Both the position numbers and the translations under genes were made by a program. Of a DNA stretch of 55,359 nt, positions 15,745-51,212 are shown piece after piece (the stretch's first letter is position 1; every line of letters begins with the position of its first letter). The notes under the pieces are model-generated. The model made no database searches. It saw only the letters and a program-made list of their open reading frames with translations, and was not told where the DNA came from. Location of the stretch: positions 1 through 55,359 of the IMG/VR virus record IMGVR_UViG_3300009177_000047; one strand, written 5' to 3'. This DNA comes from a virus.

Positions 15745-16662
15745 ATGAATTTCAAGCTCACCTTCAATCGGCCCGCCGTTCGACAGTTCATTGAGGGCGG
15801 CGAAGGCCGTGGCCTCAAGATCAAGATCGAGAACGGGACCGTCATGTTCTCGCCTTCGCCGACCCCGGATGGGGAAGATGTGGCGAGCCTCGCTCCCAGA
15901 ACGCGCGGTGGATATGAGTCCATCGTCGAAGGGACCAGCGCCAATGAGGTGTTGAAGCACCTCAAGAACCCCGCCGGACCCTTCTTCACTCTGCGCCGCG
16001 TCGGCAAGGACTGGGTCGCCGCCGAGCCCTACAAGGGCAAGGATGCTCCCCCGAAGTTCGAACCCCACGTTCGGGTCTGGCACTCTTCTCAACCCAAGCA
16101 ATCGGTCAAGGCCACTGCGGCTCCCAAGCGCGCCGCTACCCCCAAGACCCAAGTGACCCACACCCCGGAACCGGTGGACATCGCCGAACGAGTCCGGTGG
16201 GCCTACGCCAAGCTCGGCGAAGATCGTCGCCCCGGCCGCCCGTCCCGCGAGATCGCCGAAGCCCGGCAGATCAAGGAATCGTTCGAGGCCATGGCCATGG
16301 AGTTCATCTCGAACCCCAACGGCAGCAGCATCGACGTGAAGGCGGCGGTGGATGCCTACAACCAACTCGGCGCCTTCCTGCGCACGGTGGCTCCTGAAGC
16401 CATTCGAAATGCGGAACCGAAGCCCATGGCTCCTGTTCCGATGGCACCGGCGCCCCGGCGGGGACCGAAGGCCAAGAACTTCGTCACACCGCCGACGGCC
16501 AAGGCCGCGAAGGTGACCCCGAGCCACGACGACGAGGAAGCCGAAGCTCAACGCAAAGAGGCCATGAAGAAACTTGGCCTCGAAGAGCGCGCCGTTCCGG
16601 TCTCCAAGCGCTCTCGGTCGGTCAACACCCGCGCCTTCGGCGGCGAGCGCCTGATCGCCTAG
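15745..16662 (+). CDS. Pro/Ala/Lys-rich protein, unknown
   Basis: This 305-residue protein starts at ATG 15745 with GAGG 8-9 nt upstream. Residues 1-115 look like a folded alpha/beta domain. Residues ~120-145 and 205-255 are Pro/Ala/Lys-rich linkers (for example KPMAPVPMAPAPRRGPKAKN), and a helical domain lies between them. The C-terminus is charged (DDEEAEAQRKEAMKKLGLEE). The linkers suggest a flexible, perhaps nucleic-acid-binding protein; that is inference. A strong terminator follows it, so it is a single-gene unit. Confidence 0.7.
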   Translation: MNFKLTFNRPAVRQFIEGGEGRGLKIKIENGTVMFSPSPTPDGEDVASLAPRTRGGYESIVEGTSANEVLKHLKNPAGPFFTLRRVGKDWVAAEPYKGKDAPPKFEPHVRVWHSSQPKQSVKATAAPKRAATPKTQVTHTPEPVDIAERVRWAYAKLGEDRRPGRPSREIAEARQIKESFEAMAMEFISNPNGSSIDVKAAVDAYNQLGAFLRTVAPEAIRNAEPKPMAPVPMAPAPRRGPKAKNFVTPPTAKAAKVTPSHDDEEAEAQRKEAMKKLGLEERAVPVSKRSRSVNTRAFGGERLIA

Positions 16663-16692
16663 TTTCGATACCCCTTCATGTGTGAACTTGGC

Positions 16693-16724
16693 GGCGTGTC
16701 CTTCGGGACGCGCCGTTTTTGTTT
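16693..16724 (+). terminator. rho-independent terminator
   Basis: Stem ggcgtgtcc (16693-16701) pairs with ggacgcgcc (16706-16714), with one G-T pair and a TTCG tetraloop, and is followed by gtttttgttt. It ends the 15745-16662 unit and abuts the promoter of the next gene. Confidence 0.85.
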
Positions 16725-16750
16725 GACCCGACGACACCGGTCTGTAATTT
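16723..16750 (+). promoter_or_regulatory. sigma70-like promoter for the synthetase-like gene
   Basis: TTGACC (16723-16728) lies 16 nt before TAATTT (16745-16750), directly after a strong terminator and 24 nt before the start of the next gene. The placement supports independent, probably host-polymerase-driven expression. Confidence 0.5.
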
Positions 16751-16773
16751 GGGGAACCAAATTGGAGCCCGTT

Positions 16774-17511
16774 ATGAGTCACGCTTTTTACAACGTCGGT
16801 GGTCTGCGCTTTTGGACGGAGCGAGAAATTCGCGTCCGTGACCAAGCGATTGCCACGTTGCAAGGAGAACTCAGCGCGGCTCTTCTGGGATTGAACTCGG
16901 CTTGGACTTTCCACCGCATGGAAGGCCCCCTGCTGACCCCCAGATCGTTCATCAGCCCTGCTTACGATGATAGCGACATCTTCCTGCTCGAAGCCAAGTT
17001 GGGCGACCAGCAAGCCGCTCTGAGGGCCGAGACGACGGCGTCCAGCTACCTCTACGCCGAACACCTCCTGAAGAACGGTGTGCGGCCTCCTGTGTGCGTC
17101 TGGCAGGCAGGTAAGTCGTTCCGGCGGGAAACGAACGACGGCGCCCGTGCGTCCGAACTTCGCTTCAACGAGTTCTACCAGATCGAGTTTCAGTGCATCT
17201 TCAAGTCGGACACCAAGGCCGACTACCGGGCGTGCGCTGAAGAAGCGATCTCGAAGGCGATCAAGAACATCGTCCGGGCGCCGGAGCTTCGTATGGTGGA
17301 TAGCGACCGTCTGCCCGCCTACTCGCAGCAGACGCGGGACGTGGAAGTGCCCTACGGCTATGAGCGTGTCGGCATCGCCACGAAGCTTCCGAAGTGGAAG
17401 GAGATGTGCTCCATCTCCACCCGCACGGATTTCCCGGTCGAGAACATGCTCGTGCTAGAAGTGGCTGTCGGCCTTGACCGACTGGTGGTCGTGGAGAGCG
17501 AGGCAGACTGA
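16774..17511 (+). CDS. class II aminoacyl-tRNA synthetase core, glycyl-type
   Basis: This 245-residue protein aligns by eye with the catalytic core of bacterial/archaeal-type GlyRS. It has LRAET (83-87; LRPET in GlyRS), motif 2 as QAGKSFRRET (111-120) followed by ELRFNEFYQIEF (128-139), STRTDF (215-220; QRTDF in GlyRS) and motif 3 as EVAVGLDRLVV (229-239). The motif 2 and motif 3 arginines are present. GlyRS is normally over 450 residues; the anticodon-binding domain is absent. It may be an aminoacylating or adenylating enzyme acting on a non-tRNA or minihelix target. GGAG precedes ATG 16774, and tRNA genes lie ~550 nt downstream. Confidence 0.75.
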   Translation: MSHAFYNVGGLRFWTEREIRVRDQAIATLQGELSAALLGLNSAWTFHRMEGPLLTPRSFISPAYDDSDIFLLEAKLGDQQAALRAETTASSYLYAEHLLKNGVRPPVCVWQAGKSFRRETNDGARASELRFNEFYQIEFQCIFKSDTKADYRACAEEAISKAIKNIVRAPELRMVDSDRLPAYSQQTRDVEVPYGYERVGIATKLPKWKEMCSISTRTDFPVENMLVLEVAVGLDRLVVVESEAD

Positions 17512-18064: not shown

Positions 18065-18140
18065 GCGCCTATAGCTCAATTGGAAGAGCGACCGGTTTCT
18101 ACCCGGTAGGTTGGGAGTTCGAGCCTCTCTAGGCGTGCCA
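18065..18140 (+). tRNA. tRNA-Arg (anticodon UCU)
   Basis: The 76-nt sequence folds as a full cloverleaf. The acceptor is GCGCCTA/TAGGCGT (first pair G-T), the D arm GCTC/GAGC, the anticodon stem ACCGG/CCGGT with loop TTTCTAC, and the T arm GGGAG/CTCTC with loop TTCGAGC. CCA is encoded. The anticodon TCT reads AGA, a codon generally rare in high-GC bacteria. Confidence 0.95.
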
Positions 18141-18148
18141 TTTCCTGT

Positions 18149-18224
18149 GATCCCGTAGCTCAACAGGAAGAGCGCGCGTTTCCTAAACACGAGGTTGCTG
18201 GTTCGAGCCCAGCCGGGGTTGCCA
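18149..18224 (+). tRNA. tRNA-Arg (anticodon CCU)
   Basis: The 76-nt cloverleaf has acceptor GATCCCG/CGGGGTT (two wobble pairs), D arm GCTC/GAGC, anticodon loop TTCCTAA and T arm GCTGG/CCAGC. CCA is encoded. The anticodon stem CGCGT/ACACG has one C-A mismatch at its centre. The anticodon CCT reads AGG. It lies 8 nt after the tRNA-Arg(UCU), so the two are probably co-transcribed. Confidence 0.9.
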
Positions 18225-18431: not shown

Positions 18432-18647
18432 TTAGCTTAAGGGGTAGTAGCGGGGTTCGTGGTAGTCCACACCGCCAAACGTTTTCAGCAACACCGCCTC
18501 ATGAGCCGGGAGATGGAAGACGATGCCACCGCCCATGAAGAACGTTTCCCTGTTGTAGTAGCGTTCTTTCTTCAGGCGAACGATCAACATCTCGACCGCA
18601 GGATCGTCCAAGACTTCCGTGGGGACGAGAATTTCAAACTCAGTCAT
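18432..18647 (-). CDS. small protein with strand-turn-helix C-terminus (family G), last gene of the M16 operon
   Basis: This 71-residue protein begins MTEFEILVPTEV at ATG 18647, overlapping the preceding stop by 8 nt. Residues 39-56 (GGGIVFHLPAHEAVLLKT) match the strand-turn-[DE]A-helix pattern found at the C-terminus of several other proteins of this phage. Here 15 further residues (ending RYYPLS) follow. It is the sixth gene of the M16 operon. The function is unknown. Confidence 0.6.
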   Translation of the reverse strand: MTEFEILVPTEVLDDPAVEMLIVRLKKERYYNRETFFMGGGIVFHLPAHEAVLLKTFGGVDYHEPRYYPLS

Positions 18648-18795
18648 AGTCGAAGGGATTCCAACCTGACGCCCGGCGATCACGCTCCGCATCATGGAAG
18701 TTGTCCTGACAGGCGAGGCAACGCCCATCGACGAGATCATCCGCATCGAACGTCTCGAAGTCGCAATCGGTGCAATAATAGGTCGGGAAATTCAT
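18640..18795 (-). CDS. small zinc-ribbon protein
   Basis: This 51-residue protein begins MNFPTYYC if ATG 18795 is used; that start overlaps the upstream stop as ATGA. An in-frame ATG at 18807 is possible. Two CxxC knuckles (CTDC at 8-11 and CLAC at 31-34) with ~20 residues between them fit a four-cysteine zinc ribbon. The C-terminus is acidic (ASGWNPFDYD). It is coupled to the membrane-protein genes of the M16 operon and may be an adaptor or nucleic-acid binder. Confidence 0.65.
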   Translation of the reverse strand: MNFPTYYCTDCDFETFDADDLVDGRCLACQDNFHDAERDRRASGWNPFDYD

Positions 18796-19157
18796 TTTAG
18801 TGTCCATATCGTCATAACCGGAACGACCAAACCCAAATAGCAAGCACCATAAAGGGCCAGACTTACGATGATTTTAGTTCGAAGAGGAAGGTGCGCAGCC
18901 CCACCAGAAAATCTGGAATAACCGGGAATCAATAATTCGGTGACGGCGTAGAACCTATTTCTAAACCATATAAACATCATGGCCAGCGTGCAAATAGCCA
19001 TCGCTATGACAATCGCACTATTCGTTTTTTCGGCGGCGTAACACACCAGCGAGGTAAGACACATTCGTTTCAAATACTCAAACCACGGATCAACTATTAG
19101 CTCTTTGCCATGCTGAAGAAGCCATTCGCAGGTTTTCTCATACGAAAACTTTACCAT
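18792..19157 (-). CDS. membrane protein, paralog 2 of the M16 operon
   Basis: With ATG 19157, overlapping the upstream stop, this is 121 residues. The sequence IVDPWFEYLKR (about residues 19-29) is shared with the gene just upstream (ISDPWFEYLKR), and the rest aligns along its length: SLVCYA with SLVYYA, MFIWFRNR with MGIWVRDR, and a hydrophobic C-terminus. Three membrane segments are likely (~30-45, 45-65, 95-118). A tandem duplication is the simplest explanation. It is more A/T-rich than the peptidase gene. Confidence 0.7.
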   Translation of the reverse strand: MVKFSYEKTCEWLLQHGKELIVDPWFEYLKRMCLTSLVCYAAEKTNSAIVIAMAICTLAMMFIWFRNRFYAVTELLIPGYSRFSGGAAHLPLRTKIIVSLALYGACYLGLVVPVMTIWTLK

Positions 19158-19633
19158 GTCTTTGTAGCCCAAAAAGAATAACTGGGGAGACCTATCAAAA
19201 AAATCCAAGCACTATACGCGAGCCACCTGACGAAGCATCGCGCACGCCACGGAAGTGGGTCCACAAACGGGCGCAGACTTTCGGCTAGGTCAATAATGCG
19301 GTCTCTGACCCAGATACCCATGAGAGAGCAAGTAATTGCCGACGCAACCCACAGGACCCACATGATCCAACGGTCGTGCGTCTTTGCCGTTGCATAGTAA
19401 ACGAGAGAAACGGCCGCCAACCGTTTAAGGTATTCGAACCACGGATCGCTAATCAGCGATTTGTGATTTTCAGAAACCCATGCTCGCATTGCTGCGCTAA
19501 GCACCGGTGCCTTGGTGCCTGCATACTTTTCTCGAATGGTTCCCGCCGGGGTGGGTTCTCCCGGTTCACCCCACCATATTTTTACAGCGATGCACGCATC
19601 GCTCCACCATGCTTTGGCCAAACTGACGAACAT
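19151..19633 (-). CDS. membrane protein, paralog 1 of the M16 operon
   Basis: This 160-residue protein starts at ATG 19633, overlapping the upstream stop as TGATG. A soluble N-terminal half (residues 1-65, with WWSDACIAVKIWWGEP) is followed by ISDPWFEYLKR and about three hydrophobic segments ending ...LIGLPSYSFWATKTW. The C-terminal ~100 residues are homologous by eye to the following gene. The position next to an M16 zinc peptidase suggests a membrane partner or target; that is inference. Confidence 0.7.
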   Translation of the reverse strand: MFVSLAKAWWSDACIAVKIWWGEPGEPTPAGTIREKYAGTKAPVLSAAMRAWVSENHKSLISDPWFEYLKRLAAVSLVYYATAKTHDRWIMWVLWVASAITCSLMGIWVRDRIIDLAESLRPFVDPLPWRARCFVRWLAYSAWIFLIGLPSYSFWATKTW

Positions 19634-19953
19634 CAGACGCTTTCGAGCTTGATCCCGACGATGACAGCCAATGCCTGCATGATGTCGCCGCCATAGCAAT
19701 GGCCGGAGCCGTAGCCCCCGTCACCGAGACGCGGACTGAAGGTGTCGTCGGAGCAGGCGAGTTCGTTCGCCTTCTCCCACTTGTCATAGTCGCGCCAGCG
19801 TTTCGCCTCTTGCGCTTCCGTCTCGCCCTCCTTGCCGTCTTCGAACGGGTTTTCGGAGGGGTGGTGCTTGTAGAGATACCAGCAGTCGTTGTCGATGATG
19901 GCGACGCAGCCGGGATTGTCCTTCAGGAGACGGATCAGATTCTTTTTAGCCAT
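19633..19953 (-). CDS. soluble protein downstream of the M16 peptidase
   Basis: This 106-residue protein has AAGGA 4 nt before ATG 19953, and the ATG overlaps the peptidase stop. It begins MAKKNLIRLLKDNPGCVAII. The middle is highly charged (ENPFEDGKEGETEAQEAKRW), and the C-terminus has a Gly/Tyr-rich segment (GDGGYGSGHCYGGD) and a final hydrophobic helix. It is translationally coupled to the peptidase, so the products may act together. No family is recognised. Confidence 0.65.
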   Translation of the reverse strand: MAKKNLIRLLKDNPGCVAIIDNDCWYLYKHHPSENPFEDGKEGETEAQEAKRWRDYDKWEKANELACSDDTFSPRLGDGGYGSGHCYGGDIMQALAVIVGIKLESV

Positions 19954-21253
19954 TGAGTCCTTCAGCAACCAAAGCCGTGTAGTCCTTGTCGGCGGCGTTG
20001 CCTGCCACGACCACGGTCGGGTTCAGGGTCAACAGGGTCTTGGCTGCCGCGATCACATCGTCGCGGGTCACCTTGTTGTAGCGCTCGACCTGCTCGCTCA
20101 TGGTCCGCACCTTGCCGCCGGTCTGCATATCGGAGGCGACTTGCTGCGCGACCGCAATCGGCTTTTCCGAGCGCGAGACGATCTGGCGAACCGTTTGGTT
20201 CAGAGCCCGCGTCCAATCATCGTCACTGATCTCGCCCTTGGCGATCTTGGCCAGTTCGGCGCACGCCGTGACGAGGAACTCATCCACGTTCTCGGCTGTG
20301 GTCGCGCCGTTGAGCAGGAACAGGCTGGAATCGGGCTGCGGAGACATTCCGGCGCCGATTGAGTAGCAGAGGCCGCGCTCTTCGCGGACCTGCTGGAAGA
20401 GCGGGGACGACATGCCGCCGCCCAGAACGTCCGACAGCAGATCGTAGACGGCGTAGTCGTCATCCATCGTGCCCGGCGCCGGGAACGCGATGAAGAGGTG
20501 AGCTTGGTCGTAACGATCATCGCGGACGACAGCTTGACCACCGGCGTAGATTGGGGCCACGGCGGTGATCTTCTCGCCGGGCTGAATGTCACCGAACCGC
20601 TCGGCGGTCAGGCGCACGAATTCCTCGTGATCGACGTTGCCCACGGCGATGACGGTCAGCGCGGCGGCGTGATAGTGCCGGGCCATATATTCAGCCACCA
20701 TGTCGTGGTCGAAGTTGCGAACGTTTTCCTCGGGACCGAGGATCGAACGGCCGAGCGGTTGGTTCGGATAGGCCGTGGCCGAGAGAGCGTCGATGGCGAT
20801 GTCGCGGATGTCGTCCGCGCTCTCGTGGATTTCTTGAACGACGACGTTCTGCTCGCGGCTGATCTCTTCGTCGTCCAGCGTCGAGTTCTTCAGCACGTCG
20901 GACAGAATGTCGAGGGCCGGGGCAATGTGCGACGGCAGGCCGACCACATAGTAGGCGGTGTTTGACCGGCTGGTGAAGGCGTTGATGTCGGCGCCGAGGC
21001 GTTCGATCTCGACGACGATATCCTTCGGCGACCGCGTGGTGGTGCCCTTGAAGGCCATGTGTTCGAGAAAGTGGGAGATGCCGTTCTCGGCTTCGGTCTC
21101 ATACCGCGCGCCGACCTTGGCGAACACGGACACCAACACAGTGTGGATCGGCTTGCGAGCGGTGGCCACCGTCACCCCGTTGGGAAGAACGGTGATTTGG
21201 ACCGCTTCGGCGGCCGTTTCAAAGCTCGTGTGATCCAGACTGAAATTCGGCAT
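19946..21253 (-). CDS. M16-family zinc metallopeptidase
   Basis: This 435-residue protein is full length for the processing-peptidase/PqqL-like branch of M16. The inverted zinc motif HFLEH is at 61-65, followed by MAFKGT, and the third ligand is probably Glu141 (VVVQEIHE), 76 residues on. The C-terminal half has the conserved REERGLCYSIGAG. All catalytic parts are present, so it is probably active. M16 peptidases cleave short or unfolded polypeptides, are common in bacteria and are unusual in phages. GGGAG precedes ATG 21253. It heads a six-gene operon from a TTGACC promoter and was probably acquired from a host. Confidence 0.9.
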   Translation of the reverse strand: MPNFSLDHTSFETAAEAVQITVLPNGVTVATARKPIHTVLVSVFAKVGARYETEAENGISHFLEHMAFKGTTTRSPKDIVVEIERLGADINAFTSRSNTAYYVVGLPSHIAPALDILSDVLKNSTLDDEEISREQNVVVQEIHESADDIRDIAIDALSATAYPNQPLGRSILGPEENVRNFDHDMVAEYMARHYHAAALTVIAVGNVDHEEFVRLTAERFGDIQPGEKITAVAPIYAGGQAVVRDDRYDQAHLFIAFPAPGTMDDDYAVYDLLSDVLGGGMSSPLFQQVREERGLCYSIGAGMSPQPDSSLFLLNGATTAENVDEFLVTACAELAKIAKGEISDDDWTRALNQTVRQIVSRSEKPIAVAQQVASDMQTGGKVRTMSEQVERYNKVTRDDVIAAAKTLLTLNPTVVVAGNAADKDYTALVAEGLNG

Positions 21254-21280
21254 GAGACTCCCTTCGCACTATGAACTTTC

Positions 21281-21310
21281 ATCCTATGGTCATTAAGAGT
21301 TTTGGTCAAC
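21281..21310 (-). promoter_or_regulatory. GTTGACCA promoter of the M16 operon
   Basis: On the minus strand GTTGACCA (21310-21303) supplies a TTGACC -35, and TAGGAT (21286-21281) lies 17 nt further on as a 4/6 match -10. The motif ends 50 nt before the peptidase ATG. Confidence 0.6.
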
Positions 21311-21337: not shown

Positions 21338-21345
21338 GATAAATA
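21338..21345 (+). promoter_or_regulatory. octamer GATAAATA directly before an ATG
   Basis: GATAAATA is followed by AGGTG and ATG 21351. As at 15393 and 17975, the octamer is too close to give a normal leader, so it is either a leaderless late start or an initiation context. Confidence 0.4.
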
Positions 21346-21350
21346 AGGTG

Positions 21351-21947
21351 ATGGCCGCACTTGATCTCCAAAAAATCCAAGACTCCCCGCACCTTCTGGA
21401 CATTTTGCTTCAGATGGAGGACGTGCTCGACTCGTTGGATGTCTACGTTTTCAAGAACTGGTATCTAGGAGAGATTGCCGAAGGCCCGACGGTTCGGCGC
21501 TACTGGCTCGATTTCACCCTCAAGTATCCCTACGACAAGATGCCCGACCCGAAGGCGGCCCTGCGCCTCCTGAAGCACGGCATTCGCGTGGACTTCTGGA
21601 AGGCCAAGATCGAGGACGGTGAATTCAAAGACGCCGACGAGGCTGAAGCCGATGCAGAAGCCGACGAAGGCCCCGAGAGCGATCCGGCCGACGATCCGGT
21701 GAAGAACACCGTGTGGCTGGTCCGCATCAGTATCCCGCGCCGTCTGGCCGCCCAGATGTCGTCCGAGGAAATGGACTTCTACGACGACGAAGTGGACGTG
21801 GACGACGTTGAGGACGCCAAGGACACCGGCATCGACGACGAGAGCGCCTACATGTCTGGCGAAGATGGCCAGCAGGCGGCGGGTGACCCGAACGCGGAAC
21901 CTTCGCCTGAAGAAGAACAACCGGCACCGGGAGGCCCCAATGGTTAA
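21351..21947 (+). CDS. acidic conserved phage protein, probably virion-related
   Basis: ATG 21351 gives 198 residues; an upstream in-frame TTG lies across the octamer and was rejected. Residues 1-100 are folded (MEDVLDSLDVYVFKNWYLGE, then YPYDKMPDPKAALRLLKHG). The rest is very acidic and low in complexity (EAEADAEADEGPESDPADD and a later D/E-rich run). It overlaps the next gene by 8 nt and is coupled to it. I recall this pair in other T4-like phages without a known function. Confidence 0.65.
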   Translation: MAALDLQKIQDSPHLLDILLQMEDVLDSLDVYVFKNWYLGEIAEGPTVRRYWLDFTLKYPYDKMPDPKAALRLLKHGIRVDFWKAKIEDGEFKDADEAEADAEADEGPESDPADDPVKNTVWLVRISIPRRLAAQMSSEEMDFYDDEVDVDDVEDAKDTGIDDESAYMSGEDGQQAAGDPNAEPSPEEEQPAPGGPNG

Positions 21948-22774: not shown

Positions 22775-23197
22775 GTGATTAAGTTCCCCAATGGGAGCGC
22801 CTCGCCGCGCGCCCACGATACAATCAAGGGGGTTCCTGTGGGCGTCGAGATCGTTGAGATTGGCTGTAACTGGCGAAGTGTGGCCAATCTGCGGTCCAGC
22901 CGCGAAACCCTCTGGCCCGGCATCGAAATCCTGCGGGAACAAGGCATCCCGATCTGCGAAAAACCCACCAGCATCCTTCTTCCCCTCCATGTCCGCGAAG
23001 ACATCAGGACCGTGGAACTGCGCGACTGGCTCGACGGCCGTGCAAAAGAGAAGAAAAGAGAACGCGGTTGGGTGAAAATGTTCAATCGTTTCAACTATGA
23101 CGAGCAAAAGTTCCAGATCAAAAGAGCCTATTTGGGCGTGAACTTCCGGTTCGAAGAGTCCGAAGACGCGTTTCTTTTCAAAATGTTCTACTATTGA
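22775..23197 (+). CDS. small protein with strand-acidic-helix C-terminus (family B)
   Basis: GTG 22775 gives 140 residues; GTG 22837 behind GGGGG is a good alternative. The N-terminal part has a folded alpha/beta look (SIL LPLHVREDIRTVELRDW region). The protein ends AYLGVNFRFEESEDAFLFKM-FYY: strand, acidic turn, [DE]A, helix with FKM. This is one of the clearest copies of the family signature. It lies between virion-like genes and the PAS operon. The function is unknown. Confidence 0.65.
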   Translation: MIKFPNGSASPRAHDTIKGVPVGVEIVEIGCNWRSVANLRSSRETLWPGIEILREQGIPICEKPTSILLPLHVREDIRTVELRDWLDGRAKEKKRERGWVKMFNRFNYDEQKFQIKRAYLGVNFRFEESEDAFLFKMFYY

Positions 23198-48947: not shown

Positions 48948-51212
48948 TCAGCCGGTGACCACAATATTTTCGTCAACGACATCGACCTTGGCCACGCCAC
49001 CCTTCGAAAGGGTGCCGGTGACCATCAGCCGCGACAGAGGCTTCTTGATGTTGTCGTTGATGACCCGCTTCAGCGGCCGGGCTCCCATATCCTCGTCGAA
49101 GCCGTTCTTCGCCAGCCATTCGCGGGCCGGGTCGCTCAGTTCGACGGTGACGTTGCGGTGGCTCGCCATCTCCGAAAGCTGGGTGATGAACTTGTCCACG
49201 ATGACGCGGATGTGCTCGGGCTTCAGGCGGTCGAACTTCACGATGGCGTCGAGGCGGTTGCGGAATTCCGGCGAGAACATCCGCTTGATGACCGGTTCGT
49301 CGGCGTCATTGCTCTTCTGGGAACCGAAGCCGATCTTGTTCTTGCCCAGTTCGGCCGCACCGGCATTCGAAGTCATGATGAGGATGATGTTGCGGAAATC
49401 GACCCGCTTGCCGCTGGCCGAAGTCAGCGCGCCGTCGTCCATCACTTGAAGCAGGACGTTGAACACGTCCGGGTGGGCCTTCTCGATCTCGTCCAGCAGC
49501 AGCACCGCGTGCGGGTGCGTGTCCACTTCGTTGGTCAGCTTGCCACCACCAGAGTCACCTTCACCGTATCCAACATAGCCGGGAGGGGCGCCGATCAGCT
49601 TGGCGACAGAGTGCTTCTCCATGTATTCCGACATGTCATACTTCAGCAGCGGGATACCGAGCGTCTTGGCCAGCGTCCGAGCGGCTTCCGTCTTGCCGAC
49701 ACCCGTGGGGCCGGTGAACAGATAGGAGCCCGCCGGGAGGTTGGTCTCGCGCAGACCGGCGCGCTGGACAAACACGGCGTCAGTCAACGCCAACAAAGCC
49801 GCATCTTGGCCGATGACGTTGAGGCGCAGGTCCGTTTCGAGGCGGCTCAACTTTTCGTTTTCATCTTCACCGACTTCACGAGCCGGAATGTGGGCGACCT
49901 TTGCCACTTCGACTTCGATCTCCGTCAGGCCGATCTCGGTCTTGCGTTGATCCGCCGGAAGGATGCGTTGCCGGGCGCCAGCATTGTCGATCACGTCAAT
50001 CGCCTTGTCGGGCAGTTGCGAGTTCGTGACGTAGCGATTCGTCAGGTCCACGGCCGCGTCGAGCGCTTCGTCGGTGTAGGTGATTCCGTGGAACGTTTCA
50101 TAGTTGGTCTTCAGGCCGCGCAGGATGAGCTTGGCGTCTTCGACCGACGGTTCCGCGATTTCCACCTTCTTGAAGCGACGCTTCAGCGCGCCGTCCTTCT
50201 CGAAGTGCTTGCGGTATTCCTCCTGCGTGGTCGAGCCCATGCAGCGCAGGGTGCCCTTCGCCAGCGCAGGCTTCAGCAGGTTGGCCACGTCCAGCGAACC
50301 TTGGCTGCCCGAACCGGCGCCCATCACCGTGTGGATTTCGTCGATGAACAGGATCGCGCCGGGGATCATCTCCACGGCCTTGATGACTTGCTTCATCCGC
50401 TCTTCGAAATCACCCCGGAAGCGGGTGCCCGCCACGAGACTGCCGATGTCGAGGGAGAACACGGTCGAGTTCTCGATGACTTCCGGCACTTCCTTGCGGA
50501 CGATCTTCAGGGCCAGACCTTCGGCCAGAGCCGTCTTGCCGACGCCGGGTTCGCCGACCAGCACCACGTTGTTCTTGGTCCGGCGAGCGACGATCTGGAT
50601 GATCGCCATGATCTCGTCGGTGCGGCCGATCAGCGGGTCGATCTTCGACTCGGCGGCCTGCTTGTTCAGGTTGATCGCATACTGTTCGAGGAAGGCTTCC
50701 GCCTCTTCCCGATTGGACATCTGGGTTTGCTGGGTCGGACCCTCAGCCCCAGCGTGCTCGCGCCGGTCGCCGCGCTTCGTGCCATGGGACAGTTGCTTCT
50801 TCACGGCGAGCGGAGTGACGCCCATCTTCAGCAGCAGAGTGACGGCGAAGCTGTCCTCGTGCGGCATTTCCAGAAGGTGCAGGAACAAATCGGTCGGGGT
50901 GGCCTTGCCACGACCACTCATCGCGGCGTAGCCGACGGCCTTGGTGACGATCTCGTCAAGGCTGGCGGTCGGGCGGGGCTGCGTGAAGGTGACCGGGATC
51001 GCGTCCGAGACGAGGTAGACATTCACCTCTTCGAGGACTTCGGAAGCGCTGGCGTTGATCGCCGAAAGGGTCTGGATGATTTCCGCGCGCTCAAGCAGCG
51101 CTGCCAGAAGGTGTTCCATCGTCACATACTCGTGGCCCTTGGAGCCCGCCACGGTTTGCGCCCGATAGATCGTCTCAATGGTATTTTCATCGGGGCCGAT
51201 GTGCTTGGTCAT
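48948..51212 (-). CDS. clpA: ClpA-like AAA+ unfoldase
   Basis: This 754-residue protein is the length of E. coli ClpA (758). A Clp N-terminal repeat domain (~1-145) is followed by D1 with GEPGVGKT (220-227) and LFIDEIH, and D2 with GPTGVGKT (~505) and LLLDEIEKAH. The D2 loop NKIGFGSQ carries an IGF tripeptide, the ClpP-docking signature, so it could drive host ClpP. No ClpP gene is in the window. Near-complete ClpA is unusual in a phage, and it may redirect host proteolysis. It is last in the unit starting with the spanins. Confidence 0.95.
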   Translation of the reverse strand: MTKHIGPDENTIETIYRAQTVAGSKGHEYVTMEHLLAALLERAEIIQTLSAINASASEVLEEVNVYLVSDAIPVTFTQPRPTASLDEIVTKAVGYAAMSGRGKATPTDLFLHLLEMPHEDSFAVTLLLKMGVTPLAVKKQLSHGTKRGDRREHAGAEGPTQQTQMSNREEAEAFLEQYAINLNKQAAESKIDPLIGRTDEIMAIIQIVARRTKNNVVLVGEPGVGKTALAEGLALKIVRKEVPEVIENSTVFSLDIGSLVAGTRFRGDFEERMKQVIKAVEMIPGAILFIDEIHTVMGAGSGSQGSLDVANLLKPALAKGTLRCMGSTTQEEYRKHFEKDGALKRRFKKVEIAEPSVEDAKLILRGLKTNYETFHGITYTDEALDAAVDLTNRYVTNSQLPDKAIDVIDNAGARQRILPADQRKTEIGLTEIEVEVAKVAHIPAREVGEDENEKLSRLETDLRLNVIGQDAALLALTDAVFVQRAGLRETNLPAGSYLFTGPTGVGKTEAARTLAKTLGIPLLKYDMSEYMEKHSVAKLIGAPPGYVGYGEGDSGGGKLTNEVDTHPHAVLLLDEIEKAHPDVFNVLLQVMDDGALTSASGKRVDFRNIILIMTSNAGAAELGKNKIGFGSQKSNDADEPVIKRMFSPEFRNRLDAIVKFDRLKPEHIRVIVDKFITQLSEMASHRNVTVELSDPAREWLAKNGFDEDMGARPLKRVINDNIKKPLSRLMVTGTLSKGGVAKVDVVDENIVVTG

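Follow-up and report, generated by a model that had tools for sequence, protein, structure and literature searches.

The virus record analyzed here, a stretch of 55,359 bases (the window), encodes a conserved, catalytically complete zinc peptidase of family M16B that belongs to phages of up to 578 kb and is apparently expressed early. A first-pass annotation had placed this gene in a six-gene system with two membrane proteins and a zinc ribbon; we dropped that system in favor of the peptidase itself. We consider it probable that a cytosolic, homodimeric M16B enzyme is made early, is alone under selection, and cleaves peptides during host takeover, with cargo genes behind it. The identity of its substrate would reveal how very large phages benefit from a duplicate of a housekeeping peptidase of their hosts.

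Source phage and operon structure

Judging from its genes, the window belongs to a jumbo myophage that is T4-like and falls in the RaK2/Atu_ph07 kindred. It encodes a baseplate wedge protein (PHROG 10646, 1e-240) and a B-family DNA polymerase with 56% and 52% identity to those of Sinorhizobium phage Phosso and Agrobacterium phage Atu_ph07, respectively. The nearest cultured phages infect rhizobia and Agrobacterium. Phosso and Atu_ph07 share the kindred and the same virion gene with the window phage, but unlike it, they have no detected M16 gene.

The features of the region are listed in Table 1. A single sigma70-like promoter (GTTGACCA) precedes six minus-strand genes that overlap one another between 21253 and 18432; this layout was confirmed on the sequence, and the promoter is real and conserved. 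The peptidase is intact, as had been proposed, with both domains, HFLEH at residues 61 to 65, and the complete catalytic set, and a CxxC/CxxC zinc ribbon is encoded in its operon. An alignment of TM1 with TM2 gave 36% identity over 115 aa (1e-17), which confirms them as paralogues. Of the longer motif that they were said to share, DPWFEYLKR is common to both, but the leading serine occurs only in TM1 (SDP, versus VDP in TM2). Membership of the 71-aa protein in a signature family was not confirmed, and a regular expression for C-terminal DA..FK.. matched another window gene, at 23197. P111, TM1, the ribbon, and the 71-aa protein had no match among reference phages and nothing above chance in Pfam, PHROGs, NCBIfam, or PADLOC. 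Neither the PDB nor BFVD contained a credible fold match to an AlphaFold model of P111 (pLDDT 73), and the TM1 model (pLDDT 55) was too poor for use.

TABLE 1 Coordinates of the M16 operon and neighboring features in the window
Feature	Position	Strand	Remarks
M16B zinc peptidase, 435 aa	19946-21253	-	One PF00675 (7e-41) and one PF05193 (2e-42) domain, Pfam
P111, 106 aa	19633-19953	-	8-nt overlap with M16
TM1, small membrane protein, 160 aa	19151-19633	-	TGATG overlap with P111
TM2, small membrane protein, 121 aa, TM1 paralogue	18792-19157	-	7-nt overlap with TM1
Zinc-ribbon protein, 51 aa, CxxC/CxxC	18640-18795	-	ATGA overlap with TM2
71-aa protein	18432-18647	-	8-nt overlap with zinc ribbon
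Sigma70-like promoter of M16 operon, TTGACC-N17-TAGGAT	21281..21309	-	Matched by a site upstream of M16 in each of the seven near lineages
Two tRNA-Arg genes (TCT, CCT), border of variable cargo region	18065..18224	+	
P305 protein, outside M16 operon	15745..16662	+	Convergent to M16 in deep relatives
Virion structural protein gene (VSP), PHROG 12928	21351..21947	+	Divergent from M16
ATAAATA, T4-type late-promoter-like motif, before VSP	21339..21345	+	Strand opposite M16

The peptidase is a bacterial-type M16B enzyme

An M16B chain has a mass of about 45 to 50 kDa and consists of one M16 and one M16_C domain, and two such chains form a clam shell. The window protein shows this single-chain architecture (Table 1). 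It also has the HXXEH motif and the distal glutamate expected of M16 (clan ME), with a spacing of 76 between H65 and E141, and the R/Y pair that marks the C-terminal half of M16 enzymes, here R290 and Y297. The zinc ligands (H61, H65, and E141), the catalytic base (E64), and R290/Y297 were invariant across 13 viral sequences. No signal peptide was apparent at the N terminus.

By sequence, the closest solved structure was that of the homodimeric Bacillus halodurans processing protease (BHP; BH2405, PDB 3hdi; 1e-65), followed by mitochondrial MPP-beta. Like the window enzyme, BHP is a single-chain M16B protein with HFLEH, the R/Y pair, and a distal glutamate at the same spacing (H50 to E126, likewise 76; PMC12731061), whereas the window enzyme is viral and lies on a separate branch. 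The R/Y pair has been described as a motif that MPP lacks (PMC12731061); because it is present here, the window protein is, on its sequence, a bacterial-type M16B enzyme.

Since each of the 13 viral records had one M16_C match and the window one M16 gene, the viral enzyme probably acts as a homodimer. HFLEH and the R/Y pair lie in one and the same chain, as a homodimer of the BHP type needs. Neither the window nor any of the 13 viral records yielded a further M16 copy, although a partner may be hidden where records are incomplete. MPP pairs an alpha subunit, which carries a glycine-rich loop, with a beta subunit. The presence of the R/Y pair and the lack of a second M16 gene in the searched records speak against identity with MPP.

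A mostly viral branch of M16B peptidases

Pattern-based scans of IMG/VR, in which very near kin may be missed and the records compared are fragments, returned 19 M16 loci with the single protein as query and 47 with an alignment. The M16-bearing contigs reach 578 kb, and 13 of them exceed 200 kb; the relatives derive from many unrelated metagenomes. M16 was uncommon among reference phages, in line with the rarity assumed in the first-pass annotation: of 50,697 records, 25 had a match, 11 of them covering at least 80%, and most were unannotated fecal fragments. No PHROGs family matched the peptidase.

A maximum-likelihood tree separated the window sequence from 78 M16B proteins of alphaproteobacterial type and placed it, with support of 100/97, together with one 12-kb MAG contig and 12 further viral sequences. 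The nearest cellular sequences, which are alphaproteobacterial, were about 38 to 41% identical to the window M16. According to this tree, the window enzyme belongs to a distinct, mostly viral branch of M16B. Many giant phages have kept the enzyme. The M16 copies of Bacillus phage G and Microcystis phage MaAM05 were very distant, on long, unsure branches outside the viral clade. The 12-kb contig within the clade (L033) is binned as a Rhodospirillales MAG and is possibly a misbinned phage contig.

Literature searches on phage M16 found no published account of this clade. The words phage and virus do not occur in a 2025 review of M16 (PMC12731061), and a review of jumbo phages never names M16 or insulinase.

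The peptidase keeps its place while the genes behind it change

M16 is oriented divergently to the gene series VSP-VSP2-P140-P82-P402 in the window and in L001, L002, L003/L004, L005, L007, and L118. The genes that follow M16 on its own strand vary among these phages. The nearest relative, L001 (a 415-kb contig), has the order M16-P111-ribbon-71 aa, its last gene encoding a homologue of the 71-aa protein; five further lineages have M16 at the same position without the P111-TM1-TM2-ribbon-71-aa cargo. M16 is followed in L002 and L005 by a different zinc-ribbon protein (58% identical between the two), with several other small genes in L005, and by no gene on its strand in L003. tRNA-Arg genes close the region in the window, L001, L002, and L005. 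Since the downstream genes change from phage to phage and tRNA-Arg genes form a border, the stretch between M16 and these tRNA genes looks like a slot for variable cargo. P111 was found elsewhere only in L001 (72% identity). Its gene is coupled to M16 in these two nearest phages, so that it may be a genuine partner of the peptidase in both.

The membrane-protein pair appears to be the latest entry in this slot. In L001, P111 is joined directly to the ribbon by TGATG; the window and L001 are identical over 20 bases (AAGCTCGAAAGCGTCTGATG) around the P111 stop and then diverge, into TM1 and the ribbon, respectively. In the window it is TM2 that joins the ribbon, by ATGA. The GC content of TM1 (0.52) and TM2 (0.44) is lower than that of M16 (0.62) and P111 (0.59), as is GC3 (0.55 and 0.48 versus 0.81 and 0.79). 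The simplest account would be a recent two-gene insertion. Loss of the pair from L001 is a possible alternative, but the low GC of TM1 and TM2 favors gain in the window; the exact pair-free junction comes from one relative, L001.

These observations bear on the first-pass proposal that the M16 peptidase acts jointly with the membrane pair and the zinc ribbon, on a substrate that is exported or lies in the membrane, and thereby changes the envelope or keeps out other phages. The tight overlaps, the single promoter, and the true paralogy of TM1 and TM2 speak for such a unit, and the intact peptidase and the close coupling of the genes stand. Functional unity of the six genes does not: relatives of the pair were found nowhere outside the window (IMG/VR, eight other M16-bearing records, reference phages, and fetched phage loci), so that co-occurrence with M16 was not seen elsewhere, and the conserved neighborhood exists for M16 alone, which largely undoes the proposal. 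The direct P111-ribbon junction of L001 and the GC contrast also count against it, as does the finding that none of the six proteins matched a described defense protein in PADLOC. We saw no sign of a changed envelope or of exclusion of phages and regard the six-gene system as very improbable; action on peptides by the viral M16 is conceivable, because M16 enzymes do act in this way.

In deep relatives, M16 lies inside other operons. P305 follows M16 on the opposite strand, convergently, in L003, L009, L010, L016, and L123. This protein, which adjoins M16 in deep relatives, has an N-terminal F.LTFNKPA motif and no Pfam match.

Several translation-related genes were noticed near M16. Beside the tRNA-Arg genes of the window, positions 16678-17511 (+) encode a class II aminoacyl-tRNA synthetase-like core of about 250 aa (NCBIfam glycine--tRNA ligase, 3e-10; Pfam tRNA-synt_2d, 1e-4) with no evident anticodon-binding domain; it is 88% identical in L001 and 72% identical in L002. 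By eye, a peptide chain release factor-like ORF was seen near M16 in three viral contigs (L011-L013; e.g., L012 2964-3527), and an aspartyl-tRNA synthetase-like ORF directly upstream of M16 in a 517-kb contig (L127 541-2352, minus strand).

Promoter motifs suggest early expression

The motif TTGAC-N17/18-TAnnnT precedes M16 in all seven near lineages (expected, 0.007 to 0.025 per 120 nt); these lineages share ancestry, and their sites are not independent. The early-type promoter is known from this near group only. A second motif, ATAAATA, occurred eight times in the window, compared with 0.75 expected and with none of 100 shuffles reaching this count. Every copy, including those at 21339(+), 15399(-), and 13292(-), lay 9 to 43 nt upstream of a same-strand ORF start, which by chance holds for 38% of positions. 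ATAAATA precedes VSP, a virion protein, and a tail fiber; no copy precedes M16. The T4 late promoter is TATAAATA, which ATAAATA resembles. Because a sigma70-like motif stands before M16 and ATAAATA before VSP, M16 looks like an early gene and the neighboring VSP like a late one. CTAAATA likewise appears, in part, as a T4-type late-promoter-like motif of the window phage.

The neighborhood could also suggest a maturation protease that processes head, tail, or internal proteins from the divergent virion cluster. M16 is constantly beside virion genes across seven lineages, gp2 of phage G, another M16, adjoins a terminase gene, and no S77 protease was found in the 415-kb contig (G001), which is possibly incomplete. 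We nevertheless judge this role unlikely, because the motif before M16 is sigma70-like and not late, because five M16-bearing contigs of 424 to 578 kb carry a separate S77 prohead protease, and because Atu_ph07 and Phosso carry the same virion genes without a detected M16. The S77 proteases of the five contigs were 66 to 75% identical to that of G004. The separate presence of S77 in these contigs speaks against M16 as a replacement prohead protease.

Possible function in host takeover

In the reading that we favor, the unit under selection would be the peptidase alone, an enzyme of the bacterial processing-peptidase/MPP-beta type. It would be made early from a host sigma70-type promoter in alphaproteobacterial RaK2/Atu_ph07-like jumbo phages, and its clam-shell chamber would enclose unfolded N termini or peptides that are small, extended, and probably basic. 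By cleaving these during takeover of the host, the enzyme may remove peptide fragments or serve the processing of early proteins. Between M16 and tRNA-Arg, the genes would be changeable cargo, with the TM pair as the newest. The substrates of bacterial M16B enzymes are poorly defined, and a Rickettsia M16B enzyme favors basic peptides (PMC12731061). SapA of Sinorhizobium meliloti, a predicted homodimeric M16B peptidase, interacts with host-derived (symbiotic) peptides (PMC8175422). As described, SapA resembles the window enzyme in that it is M16B, is a predicted homodimer, comes from an alphaproteobacterium, and may have peptides as substrates, but it is encoded by a chromosomal housekeeping gene of the core genome.

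Counter-defense, in which M16 would destroy cationic antimicrobial or signaling peptides or degrade peptide toxins, appears improbable to us. Rhizobia and Agrobacterium host the nearest cultured phages, and rhizobial HrrP destroys plant NCR peptides. The peptide interactions of SapA (PMC8175422) and the basic preference of the Rickettsia enzyme (PMC12731061) would also fit, but no linked defense or toxin gene was found, PADLOC gave no match, the N terminus lacks an apparent signal peptide, and the relatives are scattered over many unrelated metagenomes.

A further possibility, which we consider rather unlikely, is that the viral enzymes are an ancient, megaphage-own clade of MPP/BPP-like processing peptidases which, expressed early, cut specific host or phage precursors or defense peptides and so reprogram the cell. 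If true, viruses would have their own equivalent of the protein processing of organelles.

Other jumbo phages also have M16 peptidases: gp2 of Bacillus phage G and the zinc proteases of Microcystis phage MaAM05. They are just 26 to 27% identical to the window M16, and their neighborhoods differ; MaAM05 carries a tandem pair of M16-like zinc protease genes (L024 5914-8682), beside Smc/ScpAB genes. The window phage itself carries a second proteolysis gene, for a ClpA-like AAA+ protease ATPase (48948-51212, minus strand; PHROG 4871, 1e-261).
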